From Reichenbachiella agarivorans (lineage in GTDB: Bacteria > Bacteroidota > Bacteroidia > Cytophagales > Cyclobacteriaceae), in contig NZ_CP106679.1 of assembly GCF_025502585.1 (NCBI RefSeq), positions 2,821,501-2,885,500 of the forward strand: a stretch of DNA of 64,000 nt, read 5' to 3'. Below, one piece after another: positions 51,706-64,000 of this stretch. Within the stretch, counting starts at the first letter, position 1, and each line of letters starts with the position of its first letter. The notes beneath the pieces are model-generated. The model saw nothing but the letters and a program-made list of their open reading frames with translations. It did not search any database and was not told the DNA's origin. The position numbers were made by a program, and so were the translations under genes.

Positions 51706-52332
51706 ATGATCAGAAAATCAAAAAGTAGAAGCAAGCAAGCCAATCAGCTTAATCACCTGAAAAACATCATCACGTTTAGCAACTTGATGAAGGAATCTGA
51801 TGCCAATATAGTGTATTTGGGTAAAGTGACTCAGTCAACCATAGATGGGATCACCGATATGATGGAAGAGAGCATGATCGATCGTCAGGAAAGTAAGCAG
51901 ACGACCAAGCGTGTCTATCACGTGATGATCGAAGCACTACAAAATATATGCAAGCATGCCGATAGCACGGCTGAATACGCGTCCAACAGTTTGGAACAGG
52001 GCTTAGCCAAGGACGGTATTTTCCTTATTGGTCACAATGAAGAAGAATATTACGTCACTACGGGTAACCAAATCACTACTGAAAACACGATTCGCCTCAG
52101 AGATACACTGGATAAGATCAACGCACTGGATAAAGAGGGTTTGCGAGAGATGCACAAACAAGCCATGGCGCAAGGTGATATCTCTAATGTAGGAGGCGCG
52201 GGACTAGGTTTTATCGACATCAAGAAAAAAACAGGGACGGAGTATGAGTACTATTTTGATCCCGTGAGCGCAGATCACTGCTACTTTATTCTCACCATCA
52301 GAATCCTCAAAGAAGACGTAAAGGATTTTTAA
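51706..52332 (+). CDS. siaB: SiaB-family protein kinase
   Basis: A 208-residue protein with a GHKL-like kinase fold and no transmitter or membrane part. The ATP-binding N box is VMIEALQNICKHAD near residues 73-86, and the G2-like glycine loop is SNVGGAGLGFIDIKKK near 160-175. This is the SiaB (DUF6272) layout. SiaB of Pseudomonas aeruginosa phosphorylates the regulator SiaC (family knowledge). The next gene, 158 bases on, is SiaC-like. It heads the signalling cluster; no SiaD-type diguanylate cyclase is present. Confidence 0.87.
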   Translation: MIRKSKSRSKQANQLNHLKNIITFSNLMKESDANIVYLGKVTQSTIDGITDMMEESMIDRQESKQTTKRVYHVMIEALQNICKHADSTAEYASNSLEQGLAKDGIFLIGHNEEEYYVTTGNQITTENTIRLRDTLDKINALDKEGLREMHKQAMAQGDISNVGGAGLGFIDIKKKTGTEYEYYFDPVSADHCYFILTIRILKEDVKDF

Positions 52333-52401
52333 ATCCTATTCAAGCTATATTTTAGACACCTTACGAGAATTTCTTAATAGGAAAAATAGGTAAAAAAGCT
52401 G

Positions 52402-52433
52402 GTTGTTTGCGGTGCGATAGTTCTCTACATTTG
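52402..52433 (+). promoter_or_regulatory. Probable promoter upstream of siaC
   Basis: TACATTTG at 52426-52433 is a perfect -7 box, with GTTG at 52402-52405 as a -33 box (20-base spacer); the adjacent TTTG at 52406-52409 would give a spacer of 16. It suggests that siaC and the genes after it can be transcribed independently of siaB. Confidence 0.5.
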
Positions 52434-52490
52434 TAACAGCAGTAGAATAGAATGTTTCACAGTAGGCATGTCCTACACAATCGAGCCGCT

Positions 52491-52895
52491 ATGGATGGAT
52501 ATTTCATTAGAGCTACAGGTTCTACCCCTTCAATAGAATTTAATCCTGCAAAAGGACTTCTGGAGATTACAGGGGTGTCAACACCAGATGACCCATTGAG
52601 TTTTTATGGGCATATATTTAGTCTTTTGCATGAATTTGAAAGTGCAAACAAGAAGGAAATCGTAGTGAATTTTGGATTAAAGAATATGACTGGTTCTACC
52701 ACTTATATTTATATTTTGGTCAAAAAATTGATCTCACTACAAAATGATACTAGAAAAGTCGTTTTCAATTGGTACTATGAAAAGAACAATGAAAAAATTC
52801 TTGAAGTAGGCAAAGAGATCAGTCAGCATTATCAGCATCCTTTCAATTACATAGGTGTTTTTAAAATAAAACAGTCTTTGAGGCAAGCGAGCTAA
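52491..52895 (+). CDS. siaC: SiaC-family regulatory phosphoprotein
   Basis: A 134-residue protein of the DUF1987/SiaC family. IRATGSTPSIEFNPAKGLLE near residues 6-25 and ITGVSTPDDPLSFYG are the family start. A Thr/Ser-rich stretch (NMTGSTTYIYI, about 65-75) lies where SiaC of Pseudomonas carries its phosphorylated threonine, so T67, S69 or T70 are candidate sites. An upstream ATG at 52452 would add 13 residues without similarity. SiaC normally activates the diguanylate cyclase SiaD when unphosphorylated; that partner is absent here. Confidence 0.86.
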   Translation: MDGYFIRATGSTPSIEFNPAKGLLEITGVSTPDDPLSFYGHIFSLLHEFESANKKEIVVNFGLKNMTGSTTYIYILVKKLISLQNDTRKVVFNWYYEKNNEKILEVGKEISQHYQHPFNYIGVFKIKQSLRQAS

Positions 52896-52959
52896 AACAA
52901 TTGCCTGTAAGTGTGAATATTTTTCTTTCTGCTGCTATATTTAAGAAAAGAAAAGTATT

Positions 52960-54276
52960 GTGAATAGAAAGAAGTACCTGTCAATTTTTATTATATCTCT
53001 TCTGCTTTGTACAGAAGGGATTGCCCAAAAAATCACCAGTGATGAGCTGAATCAATTACGAGATCAAGCTGCATCTTCTACGGTGTATTTAGTCACTAGT
53101 ATAGTTTTATTGCTTGCACTCATAGTCGGAGCTTTGATTGCTTTCAGCAAATTGAAGAATACCCAAAAGGCACAAGAGGAACTTGACAAGCTCAAGGGGA
53201 TGTACCAAAATCAAATCGATGAGCTGAATGAGGATTTAAAAGATGCCAGAGTTCAGGGCCAAGGTCTCTATCAAAAGCTTCAAGTCCTAAATAATAAGAA
53301 CAAAGAGATTAAAAAGGTGTTCAAAGAAGCCTATGACAAGGTGTTGGCACAGAATGCGGAGTTGAAAGGGAGACTGGGTGATAGCCAAAAAAGTGGCAAC
53401 CAATCCGAACTGGAAAAGATCTACGACAAGTTGGAAGATGCGCAAGCCATGGTGTTGCATTCTGAGAAAATGGCCTCTTTGGGTCAGTTGACTGCCGGCA
53501 TTGCACATGAGATTAACAATCCAGTCAATTTTGTATCCAATGGAGTCAACTCCATCAAAGAGAACTTTGAAAAATACCAATTGTTCATCCAAAACTATCG
53601 CACGATATGTGAGCAACAGACGATAGAGGAGGTCAAGAAACTCTACAAATCGATCCGTGAAGATGACAAAGAATACGAAGAATTAAGAACCCTTACAGAA
53701 GAATCAATCGACGATGTGAGCTATGGTACCAACCGGATCACCGAGATTGTCAATGGATTGAGGATTTTCTCTCGTCAGGACGAGCATGAAGTCAAAGAAG
53801 CCGAAATAGAGACTATTATTGACAATGCATTGCTTATTTTGAAGCCTAAGTACAAAAAGAAGGCAAAGATTCTCAAAGATTATGATCATGGACTCAAAGC
53901 GATCAAATGCCTACCTGGTCAACTGAACCAAGCTCTGGTTAATTTGATTGGAAATGCAGCGGATGCTATAGATTTCAAAGGAACAATTACAATCAGAACC
54001 ATCGATGTAGATGCGGATACTGTGCAGATTCAAGTGCAGGATGATGGCAAGGGTATTCCAGAAGATGTACGCAAGAAAATATTTGATCCATTCTTTACTA
54101 CAAAACCAGTAGGCAAGGGGACTGGTTTGGGCTTGTCCATTACATACAGTATCATTGACAAACATGGAGGGACTATTACTGTAGATAGTACCTTAGGCAA
54201 GGGGACTATTTTTACTGTGACCATTCCCAAAGTGATTAAATTGAAAAAAACCAGAAACGAGAATAAATTCATATAG
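52960..54276 (+). CDS. Membrane sensor histidine kinase
   Basis: A 438-residue kinase. A signal peptide (to about IAQKI) is followed by a membrane segment near 44-62, so the sensor part is only about 20 residues. A long coiled coil (about 65-160) leads to the H box SLGQLTAGIAHEINNPVNF near 171-189. The HATPase domain has NLIGNAADAIDF (N), DDGKGIPEDV (G1), FDPFFTTKPVGKGTGLGLS (F/G2). GTG at 52960 is the start because the signal peptide follows immediately. It is three bases from the response regulator gene, so the two form a pair. Confidence 0.9.
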   Translation: MNRKKYLSIFIISLLLCTEGIAQKITSDELNQLRDQAASSTVYLVTSIVLLLALIVGALIAFSKLKNTQKAQEELDKLKGMYQNQIDELNEDLKDARVQGQGLYQKLQVLNNKNKEIKKVFKEAYDKVLAQNAELKGRLGDSQKSGNQSELEKIYDKLEDAQAMVLHSEKMASLGQLTAGIAHEINNPVNFVSNGVNSIKENFEKYQLFIQNYRTICEQQTIEEVKKLYKSIREDDKEYEELRTLTEESIDDVSYGTNRITEIVNGLRIFSRQDEHEVKEAEIETIIDNALLILKPKYKKKAKILKDYDHGLKAIKCLPGQLNQALVNLIGNAADAIDFKGTITIRTIDVDADTVQIQVQDDGKGIPEDVRKKIFDPFFTTKPVGKGTGLGLSITYSIIDKHGGTITVDSTLGKGTIFTVTIPKVIKLKKTRNENKFI

Positions 54277-54279
54277 ACT

Positions 54280-55560
54280 GTGGAAGACTTGCTAAACCGA
54301 TCATATAAAACCGAAGTTGAAAAAAAGTACACTGTATTGTATGTGGATGATGAAGAAGTGAATCTTCGCGTCTTTAATAGGAATTTTAGCAAGTTTTATC
54401 ATGTATTGACAGCTATAGATGCTTTTGAGGCACAGACGATTTTGTCTCAAAATGAAGTAGACTTGATCATCACCGATCAATGTATGCCTCGGATGAATGG
54501 CTCGGAATTGTTGCTCAAAATAGTGCCACTCTACCCTGATATTATTCGTATGATCATGACTGGTTTTAGTGATGAAAATGATATCAGTGAAGTGAAGCAA
54601 AAAGTGGGGCTTCATAAATTTTTGAAAAAGCCATGGGATCCTGCACAGTTGCAGAAGGAATTTGACCATGCTTTTGTGCAACGTGAAGACCTGATTATCG
54701 AGAGACGTTTGGCCAAAGCACCTAAAAGAGTAATTCCACGCAAAGAAGAGAATTTGGATTTGCTGGAATCTACCATGTCACTGGTCGAAACGAGTGAGAC
54801 CAAACAGCTCAAAAAGGACATTAACAACCTGGTCAAAGAATCAAAGACTAAAAAGGCTGAATTCATGGATGGAGGAATCAATTTTCTTCAAAATTTGAAA
54901 GACGCCATGTTGCCTATTCAGCAGGAGTTGAAACTGTACACGGAGGATGCATTCATCGTGTATGACAAAAACCGAGTCAATCAAAATGGTTATTGGTTTG
55001 GAGAGACCAATGATTGTCTGGTAATCGCTTCGTTTCATTCCAATACCCATACTAGAGAATCTTTGGCACTCAACTCTTTTGTCAGCGCTATGTTGACAGA
55101 GATAGTTTACAAAGAAAAACGTACGAAAACCCATGAAATTCTCAACAGGCTTTCCACCAAAATTCACGTGAGATTTTTGGACAAGAGCAATGAGAGCTCA
55201 TGTCCACTGGAAATTGCCGTGTTGGTATATGACCGTGCTACAGACAAAGTATCACATTCGGGCGCTTATCACAATGCCTTTTTTCTCAATGAGAGAAATG
55301 ATTTTAAAACCTTGGTAGGCAATCAAGAAGTAATTGTACCAGGCAAGGACATGCAGTTTGATATCAATGCCGTCAATGTAGAGAACATCAAAGCTCTATA
55401 CATAGTACCTTTCAATATTCTAGAGGAAACCAATGACAACCGTGGAGATTCTGAGGCTTTGAGACTATTGTTGGAAGAGATGAGAAAGGTTCCTTTTGGA
55501 ATGCAGGCAAAAATGTTTGAAGAATATGGGTATAGGAGTGTGATTGCTCTTAAACTCTGA
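54280..55560 (+). CDS. Response regulator with degenerate SpoIIE/PP2C-like output domain
   Basis: A 426-residue protein. The receiver (about 15-130) is complete: D23/D24, phospho-acceptor D66 in IITDQCMP, T94 and K116/K117. A helical linker (about 135-200) leads to a C-terminal half aligning by pattern with SpoIIE-type PP2C phosphatases (AMLPIQQEL, NGYWFGETND, SHSGAYHNAFFL). Where the fold has its metal-binding aspartates (GDFYW and DxTGHG) this protein has QNGYW and HSNTHT, so catalysis is doubtful. A binding role toward SiaB or SiaC is possible (inference). The start is GTG at 54280. Confidence 0.82.
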   Translation: MEDLLNRSYKTEVEKKYTVLYVDDEEVNLRVFNRNFSKFYHVLTAIDAFEAQTILSQNEVDLIITDQCMPRMNGSELLLKIVPLYPDIIRMIMTGFSDENDISEVKQKVGLHKFLKKPWDPAQLQKEFDHAFVQREDLIIERRLAKAPKRVIPRKEENLDLLESTMSLVETSETKQLKKDINNLVKESKTKKAEFMDGGINFLQNLKDAMLPIQQELKLYTEDAFIVYDKNRVNQNGYWFGETNDCLVIASFHSNTHTRESLALNSFVSAMLTEIVYKEKRTKTHEILNRLSTKIHVRFLDKSNESSCPLEIAVLVYDRATDKVSHSGAYHNAFFLNERNDFKTLVGNQEVIVPGKDMQFDINAVNVENIKALYIVPFNILEETNDNRGDSEALRLLLEEMRKVPFGMQAKMFEEYGYRSVIALKL

Positions 55561-55590
55561 TAAATACGACAACACCCAAACGGAATATAA

Positions 55591-56175
55591 ATGCAAGAAA
55601 TCGCAGTACAAGATAAAGCCAACAAAACAAAACTTTCTGAATCAGAAAGAATGAAATTGATCAATGACACTGCCAATGCAGTCAAAGAGGTCAATCAAAT
55701 GGCAGGTGAAAGTAGCACCAAAGAAGCCCATGAAGAAACGATCATGCTGGTTGCTTTTAGTGTGGGAAAAGAGGTTTATGCTGTCTCTATCGACCAGATC
55801 AAGGAGGTTGTTTCCTGTCCAGATATTGCTCCGATTCCACAGGTACCTCCTTTTGTAAAGGGTGTAGCCAATGTGAGAGGCAATGTGTTGGCAATCATAG
55901 ATCTGGCCATACGGTTTGGGTTGGCTCACGAAGGAGAGCAAGGCAGGTTTGTATTGGTAATGAAGAGTGAGGAACTCAAGTTTGCCATCAGTGTAAATGC
56001 AGTGCCTAATACCATGATGATCAAAAGAAGTCAAGTGACACAAGCAACTAACATAATTAACCAATCGACACTAGGGCTTAATTATGTGAAAGGCATCATA
56101 CGCCGAGATGATAACATCGTCGTTTGGGTTGATATATTAAGTTTGATGGAAAACGAGGTTTTTGGAGAGATTTAA
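55591..56175 (+). CDS. cheW: CheW coupling protein with N-terminal extension
   Basis: A 194-residue CheW. The first 48 residues are a charged extension (QDKANKTKLSESERMKLIND). The CheW fold (about 49-190) begins IMLVAFSVGKEVYAVSIDQI and has the arginine-containing PPFVKGVANVRGNVLAIIDL. It links receptors to CheA. It lies 30 bases after the regulator gene and 9 before the receptor gene. Confidence 0.92.
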   Translation: MQEIAVQDKANKTKLSESERMKLINDTANAVKEVNQMAGESSTKEAHEETIMLVAFSVGKEVYAVSIDQIKEVVSCPDIAPIPQVPPFVKGVANVRGNVLAIIDLAIRFGLAHEGEQGRFVLVMKSEELKFAISVNAVPNTMMIKRSQVTQATNIINQSTLGLNYVKGIIRRDDNIVVWVDILSLMENEVFGEI

Positions 56176-56184
56176 AAAGAGTCT

Positions 56185-59127
56185 ATGTTAAGAGATATGA
56201 ACATAAGGAGGAAGATGATCTTTCTCGTATTGGGTGTCGCGATATTAATTTATGCGGTAGCATTGGGGTATGCTGGATACAGCATGCGAGAAAAATCCAT
56301 TCATGATGCCGAGCAGTTAGTCAATTCAGTGGCTATTCAAAAATCTAATGAAATTAAGGCTACTTTGGATGATTACATGTCGTCTATTCGGGCTATGGCT
56401 GTGATTGTTCGTGATTATGTCAATTACCCCACCGAAGAGCGTGTTCGTTTGCAAGAAGATTTATTGTTCAATGTACTCGAAGAGTATGATATATATGAAT
56501 CCACCTGGATGAGTTGGGAATTGAGTGCGATTGATTCGTCTTGGGAGAAAACCTATGGACGAGAGCGTACCACTTGTTATTTAGAGAACGGCGAAAGAAA
56601 GACGACTATCACACAATTGAATCTCGATGGTGATGTGATAGGAGGATTGTACCTGGATACCAAAATCAAACAGAAGGAAACCATTTCGCCACCTTATACT
56701 TATGATGATTATGATGTGAACTCCACCAAAGTAATATTGGGAACATCTCCTATCGTACCTATTCTATCAAAGGATGGAGAATATCTAGGTCAGATTGGTT
56801 CAGATCTTTCGTTGGATGGTTTCAAGAAACTTACGCAATTTGATAGTTTTGATCAAGGGTATACGTTTTTGGCTGCCTATGACGGCACGATTGTTTCGCA
56901 TCCAGACGAAACCTTAATCAATACCAATATTAGTGCGCTGGAGATTAATCAGTCATTAGATTTTAACCTCATAGACAAAGTTCAAGCTGCTGAGTTTGCC
57001 AATTTCACGGTGTATGATAAAGTACTGGGAGACAAAGTTTACGTAGCACTTTCTCCGATTCAGGTAGGGAGGTCAGTGAATCCTTGGCTGGTAGGTACCG
57101 TGGTACCCTATTCAGCAATTACACAATCTTTTAGACAGACATTGACCAATACGATCATAGTTGGGATTATTGGATTGATCATCTTGAGCTACATTGTTTA
57201 CAATTATTCCAATCAGATCACGGTTGCTATTGAGAGAACTCACCGAGTATTGCAGAGTTTGTCAGTTGGCAATTTAGATACAAGCGAGTTAGAGTTGGAT
57301 GAGAAAAACAACGAACTTAGTCAGATGCAGTCATTGATGAACAAGTTGATTTTTGATCTAAGAGACAAAACTAAGTTTGCTCAAGAAATCGGTGAAGGTA
57401 AACTCAATTCAAATTTTACTCCCTCTAGCGAGGATGATGAGCTTGGATTGGCATTGGTCAGAATGAGAGACAATCTCAGTTCGGTACTTGACGATACAAG
57501 GGAGGTGATAGTCCAAGCTGGAGATGAGGGTAAGCTGTCTTCAAGAATCAATGTGGAAGGAAAAGACGGAGCATGGTCTGATCTTGGGGATTCAATTAAT
57601 AGCTTGATAGAGTCCTTCTATATGCCTCTGATGAGATTCAATAGGATTCTGAGTGCTATGTCGACAGGAGATCTCACGATGAGGTATTCGGAGGATGCCA
57701 AGGGGGATATCCAAATAATGGCCAATAATCTCAATCTTGCTTTGGACAACCTAGATGGATTGATTCAGCAGATTGCTTTGAGTGCTGCGATTGTAGATGA
57801 GTCATCGGTAGAGATGAAAGTGTCTAGCGAGGAGATGAGTACCAATACACGAGAAATCGCATCTGCTATTTCTCAAATGAGTCATGGTGCTCAGACACAA
57901 GTATCCAAAGTAGACGAATCATCAAATCTCATCGAAGCAATATTGGCCTCATCCAATGAGATGGGACAGAAAGCTGAGACAATCAATGAAGCAGCGAAAT
58001 CTGGATTGGCCAGTAGTCAGAAGGGTATGGAAATGGTCAATAAGGTTATGTTCAATATGGGAGATATATCGGCATTTTCAAGTCAGACCAATGACTCCAT
58101 CAAGATATTGGCGCAGCGATCAAAAGAGATAGCTAGGGTACTGGGAGTGATTACTGATATTGCTTCTCAAACCAACCTTTTGGCATTGAATGCTGCGATA
58201 GAAGCAGCCCAAGCAGGTGATGCTGGACGTGGATTTGCGGTAGTTGCCGAGGAAATTAGGAAACTAGCAGAGGGCTCTAGAAAATCAGCACAAGAGATTG
58301 AAAAGCTGGTAACTGATGTACAGGCGGATACTCTGGACGCAACTAAGGTCATCGAGATAATGATGACAAGCGTAAAAAGTGGAGAAGAGACTTCCAAAGA
58401 GGCAACCCATGTCTTTAAGGATATTTTGGAAGCATCCAATGCTACTTTGAGTTATTCAGAAGAGATTCTGAATTCTGCCAAAGGACAGACCGATGGCATC
58501 AACAATGTGGTGACGATCATCGAAGGAGTAGTAGTGATCGCAGAGCAAACAGCAGCAGGGACAGAAGAGGTGGCTAGTTCGGCTACTGAGCTTTCGTCCG
58601 GTATGGAGACCTACAATGACAAATCTCAAAAACTGGCAGAGATAGCAGAGAAATTGAAAGAAGGAGTGAGTATGGTCAAGTTGACAGGTGCTGCTAATCA
58701 AAATACTGCTATCTTCAATATGAAAGAGGCCTATGAAAAAGAAAAGTCTTTGCTAGACTCGCTTTTGGATTTTATGCCTGATGCAATTTATTTCAAGGAT
58801 TTGGATAGCAAATTTATCAAGGCTAGTAAGTCCGTAGCAAAGTTGTTTGGAATAGCCGATAGGTCTGAAATGATTGGAAAATCCGATTTTGACTTCTATG
58901 ATAAAGAAGTGGCTGAAAAGTTGTTTCAGAGCGAGCAGGAAATAGTAAAAACAGGTAATGGTATATTAAATGATGTGAGCGAAAATAGATTATCTAATGG
59001 GGAGGTAGTATATTTTTCAAATACAAAAGTACAACTTACCGACAGTGAAGGCAATGTCATTGGCACTATGGGAATATCAAGAGATATTACCGATAAGATG
59101 AAAAGCGAAAGAAGAAGTAATAATTAG
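56185..59127 (+). CDS. Methyl-accepting chemotaxis protein with HAMP chain and C-terminal PAS
   Basis: A 980-residue receptor. Membrane segments are near residues 12-30 and 315-335, enclosing a Cache-like sensor (about 35-310) with SPPYTYDDYDVNSTKVI. Several HAMP-like units follow (about 338-390, 403-440, 445-480, 488-530; for example SAMSTGDLTMRYSED). The signalling hairpin near 652-700 contains ASQTNLLALNAAIEAAQAGD and GFAVVAEEIRKLAE. A PAS domain occupies about 850-975 (DFMPDAIYFKDLDSKFIKAS), after the signalling domain rather than before it. It has no CheR-tethering pentapeptide; the end is SERRSNN. Confidence 0.92.
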   Translation: MLRDMNIRRKMIFLVLGVAILIYAVALGYAGYSMREKSIHDAEQLVNSVAIQKSNEIKATLDDYMSSIRAMAVIVRDYVNYPTEERVRLQEDLLFNVLEEYDIYESTWMSWELSAIDSSWEKTYGRERTTCYLENGERKTTITQLNLDGDVIGGLYLDTKIKQKETISPPYTYDDYDVNSTKVILGTSPIVPILSKDGEYLGQIGSDLSLDGFKKLTQFDSFDQGYTFLAAYDGTIVSHPDETLINTNISALEINQSLDFNLIDKVQAAEFANFTVYDKVLGDKVYVALSPIQVGRSVNPWLVGTVVPYSAITQSFRQTLTNTIIVGIIGLIILSYIVYNYSNQITVAIERTHRVLQSLSVGNLDTSELELDEKNNELSQMQSLMNKLIFDLRDKTKFAQEIGEGKLNSNFTPSSEDDELGLALVRMRDNLSSVLDDTREVIVQAGDEGKLSSRINVEGKDGAWSDLGDSINSLIESFYMPLMRFNRILSAMSTGDLTMRYSEDAKGDIQIMANNLNLALDNLDGLIQQIALSAAIVDESSVEMKVSSEEMSTNTREIASAISQMSHGAQTQVSKVDESSNLIEAILASSNEMGQKAETINEAAKSGLASSQKGMEMVNKVMFNMGDISAFSSQTNDSIKILAQRSKEIARVLGVITDIASQTNLLALNAAIEAAQAGDAGRGFAVVAEEIRKLAEGSRKSAQEIEKLVTDVQADTLDATKVIEIMMTSVKSGEETSKEATHVFKDILEASNATLSYSEEILNSAKGQTDGINNVVTIIEGVVVIAEQTAAGTEEVASSATELSSGMETYNDKSQKLAEIAEKLKEGVSMVKLTGAANQNTAIFNMKEAYEKEKSLLDSLLDFMPDAIYFKDLDSKFIKASKSVAKLFGIADRSEMIGKSDFDFYDKEVAEKLFQSEQEIVKTGNGILNDVSENRLSNGEVVYFSNTKVQLTDSEGNVIGTMGISRDITDKMKSERRSNN

Positions 59128-59130
59128 ACC

Positions 59131-59886
59131 ATGATCATCACAGTTATAAACCAAAAAGGTGGGACAGGAAAGACCACAACATCAGTCAATTTGGGTTGTG
59201 CCTTGGCAGAAGCTAAAAAGAAAGTGTTGATGATAGACCTGGATCCGCAGGGCAACCTTAGCTACTGGCTGGGTATTGGCGAAGTGGACAAAACCATGGC
59301 GGATGTGATGATGCTGGATAATAAGATCACGGATGTGATTGTGAAAAAGGAAGGGGTCTCAATTGCTCCGTCAGATGTGAGTCTGTCAGATGTGGAGATC
59401 AACATCGCCAGCATGAATCAGCGTGAGTCTATTTTAAAAAATGCCCTGAGTGAGGTAGAGTCAGATTATGATTATGTAATCATTGACTGTCCTCCTTCAT
59501 TGTCATTGCTCACAGTCAATGCCTTGACAGCTACAGATAGGGTCATTGTCCCCCTACAGATGGAGGTGTTGAGTTTGCAAGGTTTGGATCAGATCGTAGG
59601 CAGTATAGCACGAATCAAAAGTGTGTTGAATAGCAATTTGGAGATTCTGGGTTTGCTGCCTGTGATGGTAGATCGAAGAAGGAATTTGAGTAGAGAAATC
59701 TACGAATACATAGAAGAGAACTATGACTTAAAGCTATTTGAAAGTAGCATTAGAAGCAACGTTCGCGTGAGTGAAGCTCCATCGTTTGGTGTGAGTGTGA
59801 TGAGCTACTCTCCGAATTCTACAGGAGCTACTGACTACAGAGCCTTTGCCAAAGAGATATTGAAGTTAACCAAGAATAAGAAATAA
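59131..59886 (+). CDS. ParA-family ATPase (array positioning, ParC/PpfA-like)
   Basis: A 251-residue P-loop ATPase. The deviant Walker A is NQKGGTGKTTTSVNLG at residues 7-22; LMIDLDPQGNLSYWLG and DYVIIDCPPSLSLLTVNAL are Walker A' and B. There is no N-terminal DNA-binding extension and no parB follows, so plasmid or chromosome segregation is less likely. Its place between a chemoreceptor and a CheW gene is that of ParC/PpfA proteins, which position chemosensory arrays (inference from context). It is 3 bases from mcp and 4 from the next cheW. Confidence 0.9.
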   Translation: MIITVINQKGGTGKTTTSVNLGCALAEAKKKVLMIDLDPQGNLSYWLGIGEVDKTMADVMMLDNKITDVIVKKEGVSIAPSDVSLSDVEINIASMNQRESILKNALSEVESDYDYVIIDCPPSLSLLTVNALTATDRVIVPLQMEVLSLQGLDQIVGSIARIKSVLNSNLEILGLLPVMVDRRRNLSREIYEYIEENYDLKLFESSIRSNVRVSEAPSFGVSVMSYSPNSTGATDYRAFAKEILKLTKNKK

Positions 59887-59890
59887 GAAC

Positions 59891-60874
59891 ATGCCACTAG
59901 GAAAGAATTTGAAAAAGGATACTTTGATACCTACTGAAAAGAAGGAGAAAGAACCTGTGGCTAAGAAAACCATCGTTAGCCAAGCGAAGAAAAAACCAGC
60001 GAAGAAGGTAGAGAAACCTAAGGCCGAAAAAATCACGAAGGCAAGTCCTCCGAAAAAGGTCGCGCAAAAAAAATCGCAACCCAAAACTGAGCCCAAAAAG
60101 GTAGTAGCCATAGAAAAAAAGCAGGAATTGAAATCTGTTTCTCTTCCAACACCAAATGAATTGGAAGAGAAACAGCTATCAGCAACTGCTATAAACGAGA
60201 TAGATCAAGTCGAAGATGCCGAGTCGATTGATACCGATGAGGTGCCAGCAGTGATTTTACCTACTGAGAGACAGCATGTCACCGCACCAAAGGCACAAGC
60301 ACAAGAATTGCTTAGAAAGAAAATAGGGACAGTAAAATACCTAACAGAAGAAGAATATCAGGAAAAGAAGCGACTCAAAGAGAAATTTGACCAAGAAATC
60401 AAAGCATATGCAGGCAAGGATGTCCAATTAATTGTATTCAAAATGGGTCAAGAACGCTATGCTATTGAAATTGACCGTGTCAGAGAAGTGGTACACACAC
60501 CTAGAATTTCTAAAATCCCTCATGCACCTAATTTTATCAAGGGTGTCAGCAATGTGAGAGGGTCTGTGATGGTTGTGTTAGACTTAGGGTTAAAGTTTGG
60601 AATAGATAATCAAGAAGAATCCAAAGAATTCATCTTGGTGATTCACCATGATGAATTCAAAGCAGGAATTCTAGTCAATGAGGTTCCTTTGACCGTCAAA
60701 GTAGCAGGAGATAACATTGTGAGTTCTGCTGGTATATTAAGAAATACTTCCCTAGATGAGACTTATATCAAAGGAATAATAAAGACAGATGAGGATATGA
60801 TCATATTTATTGATATAGCAGAGCTCATCCAAGAAGACGAAGTAAGTATCATTTCCCAATCAATACTTGGGTAA
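59891..60874 (+). CDS. CheW-domain protein with long Lys/Pro-rich N-terminus (ParP-like)
   Basis: A 327-residue protein. Residues 1-85 are extremely rich in Lys, Ala and Pro (for example KKPAKKVEKPKAEKITK), 85-170 are acidic and then helical, and 177-320 form a CheW fold starting VQLIVFKMGQERYAIEIDRV with PNFIKGVSNVRGSVMVVLDL. The layout (disordered region, then CheW-like domain, directly after a parA) is that of ParP in Vibrio, which links ParC to the array. The lysine-rich tail could alternatively bind DNA or the ParA partner. Confidence 0.85.
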   Translation: MPLGKNLKKDTLIPTEKKEKEPVAKKTIVSQAKKKPAKKVEKPKAEKITKASPPKKVAQKKSQPKTEPKKVVAIEKKQELKSVSLPTPNELEEKQLSATAINEIDQVEDAESIDTDEVPAVILPTERQHVTAPKAQAQELLRKKIGTVKYLTEEEYQEKKRLKEKFDQEIKAYAGKDVQLIVFKMGQERYAIEIDRVREVVHTPRISKIPHAPNFIKGVSNVRGSVMVVLDLGLKFGIDNQEESKEFILVIHHDEFKAGILVNEVPLTVKVAGDNIVSSAGILRNTSLDETYIKGIIKTDEDMIIFIDIAELIQEDEVSIISQSILG

Positions 60875-60891
60875 GCTTAAAGGGAAGGAAA

Positions 60892-61926
60892 TTGGATAAA
60901 GTTAGAGTAGTAGTAGCAGATGATTCAGGTTTTATGAGGTTATTGATCTCAGACATATTGACCGAAAACGGAAGCGTAGAAGTGATTGGCACTGCGGTAG
61001 ATGGCAAGGACGCCGCTATTAAAGTTGCTGAACTCAGACCTGACGTGCTGTTGCTAGACATGAATATGGGGGAGTACGATGGCTTGTATGCTGTCAAGCG
61101 AATCATGAGTGAAAATCCATTGCCGATTCTTATTTTAAGTTCAATTGGCAATACCAATCTACAGCCGATATTTGATGCGCTAGATTTGGGTGCTGTGGAT
61201 TATTTGAATAAACCTGAAAAGGGTAATTCTAAGCTCCGAAATATTGAGGTGGAGTTGATCCAAAAGATCAAGAATGCTAAGCGTGCCAACACCAAGGCGA
61301 TTCCAGATCCTAAAATCAACGCCAATACCTATGAGCATACTTTTAATGAAAAGAGCAAATATGACGTCATTGTCATAGGAGCTTCGACAGGTGGGCCAAG
61401 TGCAATTGAAAAAGTGATCAATTCCCTGCCTGGAAACCTGAATGTACCTGTACTGATTTGCCAGCACATGCCACCTAACTTTATAGGGTCTTTTGTCAAA
61501 CGGCTCAATGCCATGTCACCGCTGCAGATTGAGGTAGGAAGAGAAAATATGAGACCTAAGGCTGGTCATATCATCGTGGCGCCAGGAGAGTCCAACATGG
61601 TAGTGACTAAAAAGAGGAGCGGAGGGGTGTATATTGGGTTTACAGATCAAGTATTTCCCGAATATAACTGTCCCTCTATCAATGCATTGATGCTGTCAGT
61701 AGCTGAGGTGTACAAAGACCGCAGCATAGGAGTCGTCCTCACTGGCATGGGCAAGGATGGGATGCTCGGGATGAAACAGATAAAAGAGCAAGGTGGTTAT
61801 ACCATTGCACAAAGTGAAAAGTCTTGTGTCATCTATGGTATGCCCAAGGCAGCTGTAGAGTATCAAGCGGTTGATCGCTCTATAGACATCAATGAAATAG
61901 GAGGATTTTTAGTAAACAGCTTATAA
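60892..61926 (+). CDS. cheB: Chemotaxis response regulator protein-glutamate methylesterase CheB
   Basis: A 344-residue two-domain enzyme that removes methyl groups from receptors. The receiver has D10/D11 in VVADDSGF, phospho-acceptor D56 and K108. The esterase domain carries the triad: S165 in IGASTGGPS, H192 in CQHMPPNF and D289 in GMGKDGMLGM. The start is a TTG 17 bases after the previous gene, right before MDKVRVVVADD. Its partner methyltransferase cheR is not in the window. Confidence 0.95.
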   Translation: MDKVRVVVADDSGFMRLLISDILTENGSVEVIGTAVDGKDAAIKVAELRPDVLLLDMNMGEYDGLYAVKRIMSENPLPILILSSIGNTNLQPIFDALDLGAVDYLNKPEKGNSKLRNIEVELIQKIKNAKRANTKAIPDPKINANTYEHTFNEKSKYDVIVIGASTGGPSAIEKVINSLPGNLNVPVLICQHMPPNFIGSFVKRLNAMSPLQIEVGRENMRPKAGHIIVAPGESNMVVTKKRSGGVYIGFTDQVFPEYNCPSINALMLSVAEVYKDRSIGVVLTGMGKDGMLGMKQIKEQGGYTIAQSEKSCVIYGMPKAAVEYQAVDRSIDINEIGGFLVNSL

Positions 61927-61936
61927 CAACAAAGAC

Positions 61937-63718
61937 TTGGATTCTAAAGAACAACAATATCGAGATTTATTCCACCAAGAAGCCATCGAAAGCTTCGAGG
62001 AGCTCAATCGCTTATTTACCGATTTAGAAAAGGATCATGGCAACCAGAGTGCGATTGATTCTATTTTCAGAATCACCCACACCATCAAAGGAAACGCCAT
62101 GGGCATGGGCTTTGATGATATTGCCAAATTATCTCACGTCATGGAAGACGTCATGGGAGCTGTCAAGAGTGGTGACATGAGCTTGAACAAGGAGATATTC
62201 GATGCGCTATTTACAGCCAATGACAAATTAGGAGCATTGATCGAAGCACTCAAATCAGGTGCTAAAGTGAGTTATTTGGGGATCAAAACTAAATTGGGCG
62301 TGTTTTTTAAGAATGCGACTCAAGCACCTCAAATCAAAGAAACACAGGAAGAAAAGAAGACTCCAGACTCATCGGAACATTCTACTGCTATAGAATTAGA
62401 GTCCGTGGAGTCTTCTCCTTCTTATGATGGCGATAAAGATAACGAAAATGATGAAAGTATAGACGAAGTTGATGATCAACCTACCATCACTTTCACAGAT
62501 GTTATTCAGATTCCTGTCAAGAAAGTAGATGAGCTGATGAATCTCGTAGGACAGTTGATCATTGAGCGAGATCGATTGATCAGTATCAACAGCCAAAATG
62601 GAAGCCGTGCCACTGAGTTCGAAGGACTGCAACGGATTTCTTCAGATCTGCAGTACAGCGTCATGAACGCTCGGATGGTACAGGTTGGTTTTCTTTTCAA
62701 TAAGTTTCACAGGATCGTAAGAGATGTAGCGCATATTGAGAACAAAAATGTAGACTTGGTCATCAAAGGAACGGACGTCGAAATAGATAGGAATATCCTC
62801 AAAATTATGAGTGATTCCATGATCCACTTGGTGAGAAATGCTGTCAGTCACGGTATTGAGTCCGCAGAGAATAGAAAGGCCAAAGGCAAAAAGAAATCAG
62901 GGAAGATTACCCTCAATGCACGATATGAGCGTGATAGTGTAGTCATCGAAGTGAGTGATGATGGCAATGGTATAGATGCCAATGTCATCAGAAAAAAAGC
63001 GATAGAAAAAGGACTAGTCAAGAAGGAAGTGGCTGAAAAGCTGTCTGAGAATGAAGTGATTATGTTCATCTTCGAACCAGGCTTCTCCAATGCGGAAAAG
63101 ATCACAGAGATATCTGGTAGAGGAGTAGGTATGGATGTGGTCAAAAGAGCGACCGAGTCCATAGGAGGTCAGATATCGGTCAACACAGTAGTGGGACAAG
63201 GATCAACAATCAATTTGATCTTGCCTTCTTCCATGGCATTGAAAGGGGCACTGTTGTTTGAGGTCAATGAGCATGAATATGCCGTCCCTCTGACTTATAC
63301 GGATGCTGTGGTATCTATGCCAAAAACAGAAATCCATAAGATCGGTGATGGCCTCATGGCCAATTACCTAAGCGATACGATTTCCATCGTGTTTTTAAAG
63401 GACTTTTTGAATGTAGAGACACTCTCAGATTTGACAAAATCGGGTGCTTTGCACCAAAGCTTTGACGAAATAGAAGATAATGAGGTATTGGATGTAATAG
63501 TTGTGTCATATATGGGTAAATTAGTAGGACTCGTGGTTGACAAACTGTTGCAGCAAAAAGAGATATTAGAAAAATCATTGGCAAGACCACTCGACAATGT
63601 TAAGCTATTGAGCGGATCTACCATTTTAGGTAATGGTAAGGTATGTTTGATAGTAGATGTGGCGGCCATTACAGAGATATTGTTCAAAACAATGGCTCAA
63701 AGTGCAACAATGAAATAA
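61937..63718 (+). CDS. cheA: Chemotaxis histidine kinase CheA
   Basis: A 593-residue kinase. The HPt domain (about 1-110) has the phospho-accepting H48 in ITHTIKGNAMGMGF. An acidic linker of about 70 residues follows in place of a P2 domain. P3 (about 193-250) begins VIQIPVKKVDELMNLVGQLI, P4 has LVRNAVSHGIES (N box), VSDDGNGID (G1) and SGRGVGMDVV (G2), and the C-terminal CheW-like P5 starts near 435. The start is the TTG at 61937. The lack of P2 means that a CheY would dock elsewhere. Ten bases separate it from cheB. Confidence 0.95.
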   Translation: MDSKEQQYRDLFHQEAIESFEELNRLFTDLEKDHGNQSAIDSIFRITHTIKGNAMGMGFDDIAKLSHVMEDVMGAVKSGDMSLNKEIFDALFTANDKLGALIEALKSGAKVSYLGIKTKLGVFFKNATQAPQIKETQEEKKTPDSSEHSTAIELESVESSPSYDGDKDNENDESIDEVDDQPTITFTDVIQIPVKKVDELMNLVGQLIIERDRLISINSQNGSRATEFEGLQRISSDLQYSVMNARMVQVGFLFNKFHRIVRDVAHIENKNVDLVIKGTDVEIDRNILKIMSDSMIHLVRNAVSHGIESAENRKAKGKKKSGKITLNARYERDSVVIEVSDDGNGIDANVIRKKAIEKGLVKKEVAEKLSENEVIMFIFEPGFSNAEKITEISGRGVGMDVVKRATESIGGQISVNTVVGQGSTINLILPSSMALKGALLFEVNEHEYAVPLTYTDAVVSMPKTEIHKIGDGLMANYLSDTISIVFLKDFLNVETLSDLTKSGALHQSFDEIEDNEVLDVIVVSYMGKLVGLVVDKLLQQKEILEKSLARPLDNVKLLSGSTILGNGKVCLIVDVAAITEILFKTMAQSATMK

Positions 63719-63742
63719 TGTTTTACAAAAACCATAAACAGG

Positions 63743-64000
63743 ATGTTTAGCGATTTGACTGAAAATGAAAAAGGCATAGCAGAAAGGCTGATGAAGTTCG
63801 GGCTAGCCAAAGGAGCGTTATCCTTAGAAATGATGGTTGGCAGTCCGGTGGTGATGAAGAGTGTAGACCTAGGCATGTCTAGTGTCAAAGGTGTACATCA
63901 GTTTACCAACAAAGAAGACCACAAGCTTTATCTGTTAAAAACAGAGCTTGTAGGTGATCTAAAGGGATTTTGCCACCTTATCTTCACAGAGGATGATGTA
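63743..64000 (+). CDS. CheC/CheX-like protein, 3' end outside window
   Basis: The first 86 codons of a gene 24 bases after cheA. GLAKGALSLEMMVGSPVVMK near residues 20-39 and LVGDLKGFCHLIFTEDD near 69-85 follow the CheC/CheX pattern (a helix then the strand with G-x-x-x-G-x-x-x-L-x-F). The first ExxN active-site motif of CheC, normally just before the helix, is not present here; a second one could lie past the window. The family removes phosphate from CheY-P. Confidence 0.7.
   Translation, partial: MFSDLTENEKGIAERLMKFGLAKGALSLEMMVGSPVVMKSVDLGMSSVKGVHQFTNKEDHKLYLLKTELVGDLKGFCHLIFTEDDV

Follow-up and report, generated by a model that had tools for sequence, protein, structure and literature searches.

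A SiaB-SiaC pair embedded in a chemosensory operon of Reichenbachiella lacks the SiaC phosphosite motif and the catalytic residues of its partner phosphatase domain

The window analysed here is a stretch of 64,000 nucleotides from the genome of Reichenbachiella agarivorans, a single contig of 4.47 Mb. Toward its 3' end it carries a siaB-siaC gene pair that is followed on the same strand by genes for a histidine kinase (HK), a response regulator (RR) and a chemosensory operon (Table 1). Gene calls and Pfam domain analysis bore out the genes named in the initial annotation, their coordinates, their single strand and the gaps of 3 to 64 bases from siaC onward (64, 3, 30, 9, 3, 4, 17, 10 and 24 bases). 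The siaB product scored 140 bits against the NCBIfam SiaB_fam_kinase profile (cut-off, 85), which places it in the SiaB family, and it is related to 6kko_A, the SiaB protein of Pseudomonas aeruginosa. The chemosensory operon is complete: CheA with Hpt and ATPase domains, CheW, a methyl-accepting chemotaxis protein (MCP), CheB, CheR and CheY are all present, and the catalytic motifs of CheA and CheB are kept. In relatives, mcp occurs in one to three tandem copies. The second CheW-like protein has an N-terminal extension of about 175 amino acids (aa) that is rich in Lys, Ala and Pro. In the che operon of Vibrio, too, a ParA-type ATPase gene is followed by a gene whose CheW-domain product has a long N-terminal extension (ParC/ParP; PMC5706961); the likeness noted is one of adjacency and extension, and Vibrio belongs to a different phylum. 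Literature searches gave no description of a system with this gene set, as the initial annotation had supposed, and the papers on SiaC concern Pseudomonas. To our knowledge, there are no sia genes at the Vibrio ParC/ParP locus.

Table 1. Positions of the sia-che block and of related loci; coordinates are those of the window unless a locus is given
Feature	Position	Strand	Basis or remark
siaB, SiaB-family protein kinase (DUF6272)	51706..52332	+	Pfam DUF6272, 124 bits; ATP-site motifs intact
Predicted Bacteroidota-type promoter, TTG-N20-TACATTTG	52403..52433	+	Between siaB and siaC
siaC, SiaC-family STAS-like protein	52491..52895 (open reading frame as listed: from 52452)	+	Pfam SiaC, 91 bits, over cut-off
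Altered phosphosite/docking motif of SiaC	52689..52703	+	TGSTT (or EDS[ST]T) replaces NT[SA]S-x, one residue deleted
HK: signal/transmembrane segment, coiled coil, HisKA + HATPase	52960..54276	+	Pfam
RR: receiver (D66, T94, K117), coiled coil, PP2C-fold domain	54280..55560	+	Receiver by Pfam
First cheW	55591..56175	+	Pfam CheW
mcp: Cache-like sensor region, HAMP, signalling domain, C-terminal PAS	56185..59127	+	Pfam
ParA-type ATPase (ParC/PpfA-like, array positioning)	59131..59886	+	Pfam AAA_31
Second CheW-like protein (ParP-like), 327 aa	59891..60874	+	Pfam CheW in residues 179-316 only; after parA
cheB, receiver + methylesterase	60892..61926	+	Pfam
cheA: Hpt, dimerisation, ATPase, CheW domains	61937..63718	+	Pfam
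cheC/cheX-like gene	63743..64000, on to 64378 outside the window	+	Weak CheX and CheC matches
cheR	64418-65245		Beyond the window (L009)
cheY	65250-65612		Beyond the window (L009)
Terminator-like hairpin	65691-65717		3' of cheY, beyond the window
Canonical sia module loci	L013, L048, L053, L055-L057, L063-L065		SiaC with NTSSS; not che-linked
Loci with cheR-cheB-siaBC cluster	L196, L199, L204, L206, L207, L209, L212, L216-L220, L222-L224, L227, L228		Other Cytophagales
Sole GGDEF gene cluster, small membrane GGDEF protein	L015 7452-9702 (genome 4158452-4160702)	-	

The gene order siaB-siaC-HK-RR-che was kept in all eight Reichenbachiella genomes, including those of R. agariperforans, R. versicolor and R. 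faecimaris (in some of the eight loci, the last che genes fall outside the stretch examined). Since synonymous sites among these orthologs are saturated or nearly so, the linkage is not due to chance, and because the neighbours upstream of siaB differ between two clades of the genus, the block has been kept while its surroundings changed. None of seven parA-type and three related che operons from other genera has siaBC, the HK gene or the RR gene ahead of che, and several of these genomes carry a canonical sia module elsewhere; an origin of the che linkage ancestral to the family was rejected on the strength of those ten operons. Close homologs of the RR were confined to Reichenbachiella in the family sample of 148 genomes, and a contig scan with narrow peptide patterns of the che-type SiaB matched three records, all from Reichenbachiella. 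Because those patterns were narrow, the absence from other genera is based mostly on the family sample, the che operons and the inspected SiaB loci. Found in eight of eight Reichenbachiella genomes and in no other family member sampled, the sia-che linkage is thus real and specific to the genus within that sample. The embedding of the pair in a chemosensory operon, which the initial annotation had proposed, is a stable trait: in the close relatives siaBC stays beside che, and no siaD was found beside siaBC in relatives.

Few proteins of the block are as well conserved as SiaC and SiaB. They are 94% and 92% identical, respectively, to their orthologs in genome G068, at which distance synonymous divergence (dS) is saturated; the corresponding values are 88 to 91% for CheB, CheC and CheR, 83% for CheA, 81% for the HK, 77% for the MCP, 74% for the RR and 73% for CheW. 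The nonsynonymous divergence (dN) of SiaC from the nearest species was 0.04 to 0.06, with dS saturated or near saturation, and for most pairs a dN/dS ratio is not computable owing to that saturation. These values point to strong purifying selection on the Sia, HK and RR proteins. Two of the three switch parts are without their canonical residues, as described below, which might suggest a decaying remnant without function; this is contradicted by the selection seen here and by reading frames that are intact in all eight genomes. Given the identities of SiaC and SiaB at saturated dS, we consider decay highly improbable.

In Pseudomonas, one SiaC motif combines the residue phosphorylated by SiaB (Thr68) with the docking surface for the SDRxQ stalk of SiaD; in P. 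aeruginosa, N67, T68 and S69 of SiaC are required for SiaD binding, with contact to S82, D83 and Q86 of SiaD (PMC8457831). Inspection of the aligned sequences revealed that this N-T-[S/A] motif is gone from the che-linked SiaC of all eight genomes, in which TGSTT or EDS[ST]T is found instead and one residue is deleted. The pattern [FY]-N-T-[SA] is kept in all 49 other aligned SiaC entries (47 distinct), including paralogs from the same genus, and the NT motif is also kept in 30 loci listed from a wider set. The che-linked protein missed the NCBIfam SiaC equivalog cut-off (54.6 versus 150). Its AlphaFold2 model (predicted local distance difference test score [pLDDT], 83), for which the top Foldseek matches were the SiaC chains 7e6g, 6kko and 6k4f, indicates that the fold is still that of SiaC. 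The protein nests within the genus's own SiaC_2 clade (support, 96/86), where its branch is long (2.2 changes per column), and the motif loss is therefore derived. The genome also encodes three canonical SiaC proteins and two other SiaB proteins, and the che-linked SiaC resembles a nonphosphorylatable form; in three genomes, the aligned residue is Glu. As a decoy or inhibitor, it might tune the other SiaB-SiaC systems by competing for SiaB kinases with the three canonical SiaC proteins; we find this improbable, as a dedicated SiaB accompanies it in eight of eight genomes and its place in a che operon would be left unexplained.

Further inspection of its partners revealed that the SiaB motifs MIEALQN...GN...GGAGLG are intact in eight of eight genomes, as are the HEINNP, N and G boxes of the HK; this protein shares about 40 to 46% identity with the 633-aa HK found in canonical SiaB modules of the family. 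The active residues of the RR receiver are intact as well. The PP2C domain of the RR has lost SGDF, DCTGHG, SDG and the C-terminal DD in all eight genomes, and no SpoIIE Pfam match was obtained in the RR even at an E value of 10; the PP2C domain of the genome's second receiver-PP2C protein, RRPP_2 (L013), is intact. With a low-confidence model of the RR, Foldseek returned RssB first, followed by the PP2C domain of SiaA (6k4e; E = 7.5e-9) and other PP2C structures, so that a receiver-pseudophosphatase of the RssB-like class is the best fold match for this predicted structure. E. coli RssB is an adaptor controlled by its phospho-receiver, with a PP2C domain that is without active-site residues (PMC7226468), and both it and P. 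aeruginosa RssB (PDB 3EQ2, 3F7A) share with the RR the succession of receiver, coiled linker and PP2C-fold domain. The RR would thus resemble the RssB type: it has a receiver and, in the low-confidence model, a PP2C fold, and it has none of the phosphatase residues, which E. coli RssB lacks too. In sequence the RR is distant, with about 15% identity over the fold match, and it shows no sign of sigma factor or ClpX binding. The initial annotation had suggested that SiaC phosphorylation reports to the array, a proposal that the loss of NT[S/A] (Thr68) and of the partner's PP2C catalytic residues, each in eight of eight genomes, does not sustain.

Related proteins were noted at other loci. A second pair of HK and receiver-pseudo-PP2C genes, with neither siaBC nor che, lies at L061 5937-9779 and has homologs in genomes G068 and G124. 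The receiver-PP2C proteins encoded beside canonical siaBC in other genera (L053, L055-L057, L063-L065) are partly degenerate (SEEF, EFDGKG, SNG), and a separate active PP2C is encoded close to them. Judging from these sequences, phosphatase activity may have been lost from receiver-PP2C proteins more than once.

The family's canonical module, which is found in many genera, consists of siaB, siaC, a stalk protein gene, the gene for the 633-aa HK and a receiver-PP2C gene. The kinds of genes are the same as in the che-linked block, and at L048 so is the order siaB-siaC-HK-RR; the module differs in that SiaC keeps NTSSS, in that a membrane-anchored stalk protein with SDRxQ is encoded at most loci and in that there is no che linkage. 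The stalk protein (L013 9148-9696 and homologs) is a short membrane protein with a coiled coil that contains an invariant SDRxQ. Its profile matched SiaD (7e6g) weakly (E = 0.79), yet the two aligned exactly at the SiaC-binding SDRxQ. Since this motif matches the SiaC-binding residues of SiaD, the canonical module resembles, by motif and linkage, a SiaABC switch whose target would be a stalk that has no GGDEF domain. When SDRxQ was sought in all proteins of the operon studied here, it was absent, although all 13 stalk proteins examined from canonical modules contain it; no docking partner of this type was found among the operon proteins, and that candidate was dropped. The che-linked SiaB groups with a CheR/CheB-linked SiaB type and the che-linked SiaC with the genus's SiaC_2, both on long branches. 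Because the two fall in different groups, a one-step copying of the whole canonical module appears only partly supported.

Only one GGDEF gene was found in the genome. It adjoins genes for a SMODS nucleotidyltransferase and a Cap15 receptor, in a cluster that resembles a cyclic-oligonucleotide-based antiphage signalling system (CBASS), and it has no link to any sia or che gene in the window. Cyclic di-GMP was therefore rejected as the output of the sia-che module, and the initial remark that no siaD lies near che-linked siaBC held. The block has in common with SiaABCD of P. aeruginosa (PMC7647112, PMC8457831; PDB 6K4E, 6K4F, 6KKO, 7E6G) the fold and motifs of the SiaB kinase, the SiaC fold and a third partner with a PP2C fold. 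Unlike the Pseudomonas system, it has no SiaD, its SiaC is without N67/T68/S69 and it is joined to a che operon; its PP2C domain, moreover, is joined to a receiver, not to a membrane sensor, and is catalytically dead. Family membership of SiaB and SiaC might point to a SiaABCD system of the ordinary kind, which would control a diguanylate cyclase as it does in Pseudomonas, a reading already contradicted by the CBASS-like setting of the one GGDEF gene, with SMODS and Cap15, by the missing SiaD-binding triad and by the missing catalytic residues of the operon PP2C; we regard it as virtually ruled out.

The true start of siaC is probably at 52491 rather than 52452, because the proteins of relatives start with MDGYFIR and, in one relative, the upstream ATG is not in frame. 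This leaves a gap of 158 bases between siaB and siaC. A predicted TTG-N20-TACATTTG promoter lies in this gap in five of the eight Reichenbachiella genomes; published work gives TAnnTTTG as the promoter consensus of Bacteroidota, and the pattern had four matches in the window versus 1.5 expected. With this promoter ahead of siaC and the terminator-like hairpin after cheY, siaC to cheY likely form one transcript, and siaB, possibly transcribed separately, may start at a site of its own. The sia, HK and RR genes might share no more than transcription with che and act, without array contact, on a separate target such as surface, adhesion or gliding functions. Relatives of the HK-RR pair exist without siaBC or che (L061), as do parA-type che operons without sia, so the two parts are able to function apart, and a separately transcribed siaB would fit as well. 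We nevertheless hold this reading to be quite unlikely, given that the linkage persists in eight of eight genomes to saturated divergence despite changed upstream neighbours, that the gaps are of 3 to 64 bases and that the block contains no other candidate target gene.

The reading that we favour, at a probability of about 0.4, is that SiaC has become a re-targeted, binding-based adaptor under the control of the HK and the receiver-pseudophosphatase and is wired to the chemosensory array. Because Thr68, the phosphatase and the stalk target of the canonical switch are all unrecognisable here, an exchange of SiaC by binding is the most economical model. The SiaB-SiaC-HK-receiver/PP2C module of the family would have been placed, as a strongly diverged copy, before a ParA/ParP-type che operon in the ancestor of Reichenbachiella, and its chemistry would then have been altered, with the phosphosite/docking triad and PP2C catalysis lost and the SiaB ATP site, the HK His and the receiver Asp retained. 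The HK would set the phosphorylation of the receiver, whereupon the pseudo-PP2C, as an RssB-like adaptor domain, would bind or release SiaC, with SiaB as a competing holder of SiaC. Once free, SiaC would serve as an adaptor by binding a new target, which is most likely a component of the probably cotranscribed array (CheW, the ParP-like CheW, the MCP or CheA), and the outcome would be a second, two-component input into the activity or position of the array. A phosphorylation-independent partner switch serving as such an input, in which SiaC is exchanged with SiaB and docks on the array or on the ParA/ParP-like proteins, we consider possible if somewhat unlikely.

Several observations weigh against a binding-based adaptor. 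A complete SiaB kinase site is odd if nothing is phosphorylated, and two residues near the old site of SiaC, S82 and Thr84 (147-aa numbering), are invariant in the eight genomes and could be new phosphosites. The RR model is weak (pLDDT, 54.5 overall and about 70 to 85 across much of the C-terminal domain). In five of eight genomes, the transcript that the promoter defines, siaC-cheY, apparently does not include siaB, and contact of SiaC with a Che protein is a prediction. The first two of these points belong to the main rival, a phosphate switch with a moved site, in which SiaB would phosphorylate Ser82 or Thr84, a PP2C encoded elsewhere (e.g., RRPP_2) would remove the phosphate and the phospho-state of SiaC would set its binding to the array. 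The two residues are close to predicted helix alpha2, and an intact receiver-PP2C is indeed encoded in L013. Set against this, SiaC has Thr at position 80 in five genomes but Glu in the other three, the triad that is invariant in other SiaC proteins has been lost, the neighbouring PP2C is catalytically dead and linkage gives no hint of a trans-acting phosphatase; we judge a moved site unlikely.

Partner switches of the SiaABC and SpoIIAB/AA types are described as phosphate driven, and the present copy is strongly conserved without phosphosite or phosphatase. If the binding-based adaptor is correct, it would offer a route from an ordinary two-component system into the chemoreceptor array and a natural test of partner switching by binding alone, with the intact-motif SiaC paralogs of the same cells as built-in controls.

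SiaB-SiaC beside chemotaxis-type methylation enzymes is common in Cytophagales. A strongly conserved cluster of cheR, cheB, GAF, PP2C (dCache/HAMP/GAF/PAS/SpoIIE), siaB, siaC and TerB/ABC genes, in this order, was present, whole or for the most part, at 23 of 35 other SiaB loci from 11 families, the families being as numbered by the tool and the fraction open to selection bias, as the 35 loci were chosen by similarity to the che-linked SiaB. The cluster has the pair beside methylation enzymes and the absence of siaD in common with the Reichenbachiella block; it differs in being without cheA, cheW and mcp and in having an active PP2C, an intact SiaC motif and an apparent ABC-type output. This cluster appears to be a SiaABC system not yet described, in which methylation may tune the PP2C sensor and an ABC-type protein may be the output. 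Reichenbachiella stands apart in combining a full cheA operon with the loss of the phosphosite. The R. agarivorans genome also contains a second chemosensory operon of another type, with cheA, two cheW genes, mcp, cheR, cheB, a cheC-like gene and cheY (L116 9869-19684; genome 4142869-4152684). This operon adjoins a gene for a 121-aa product without annotation that is, by eye, possibly STAS-like.

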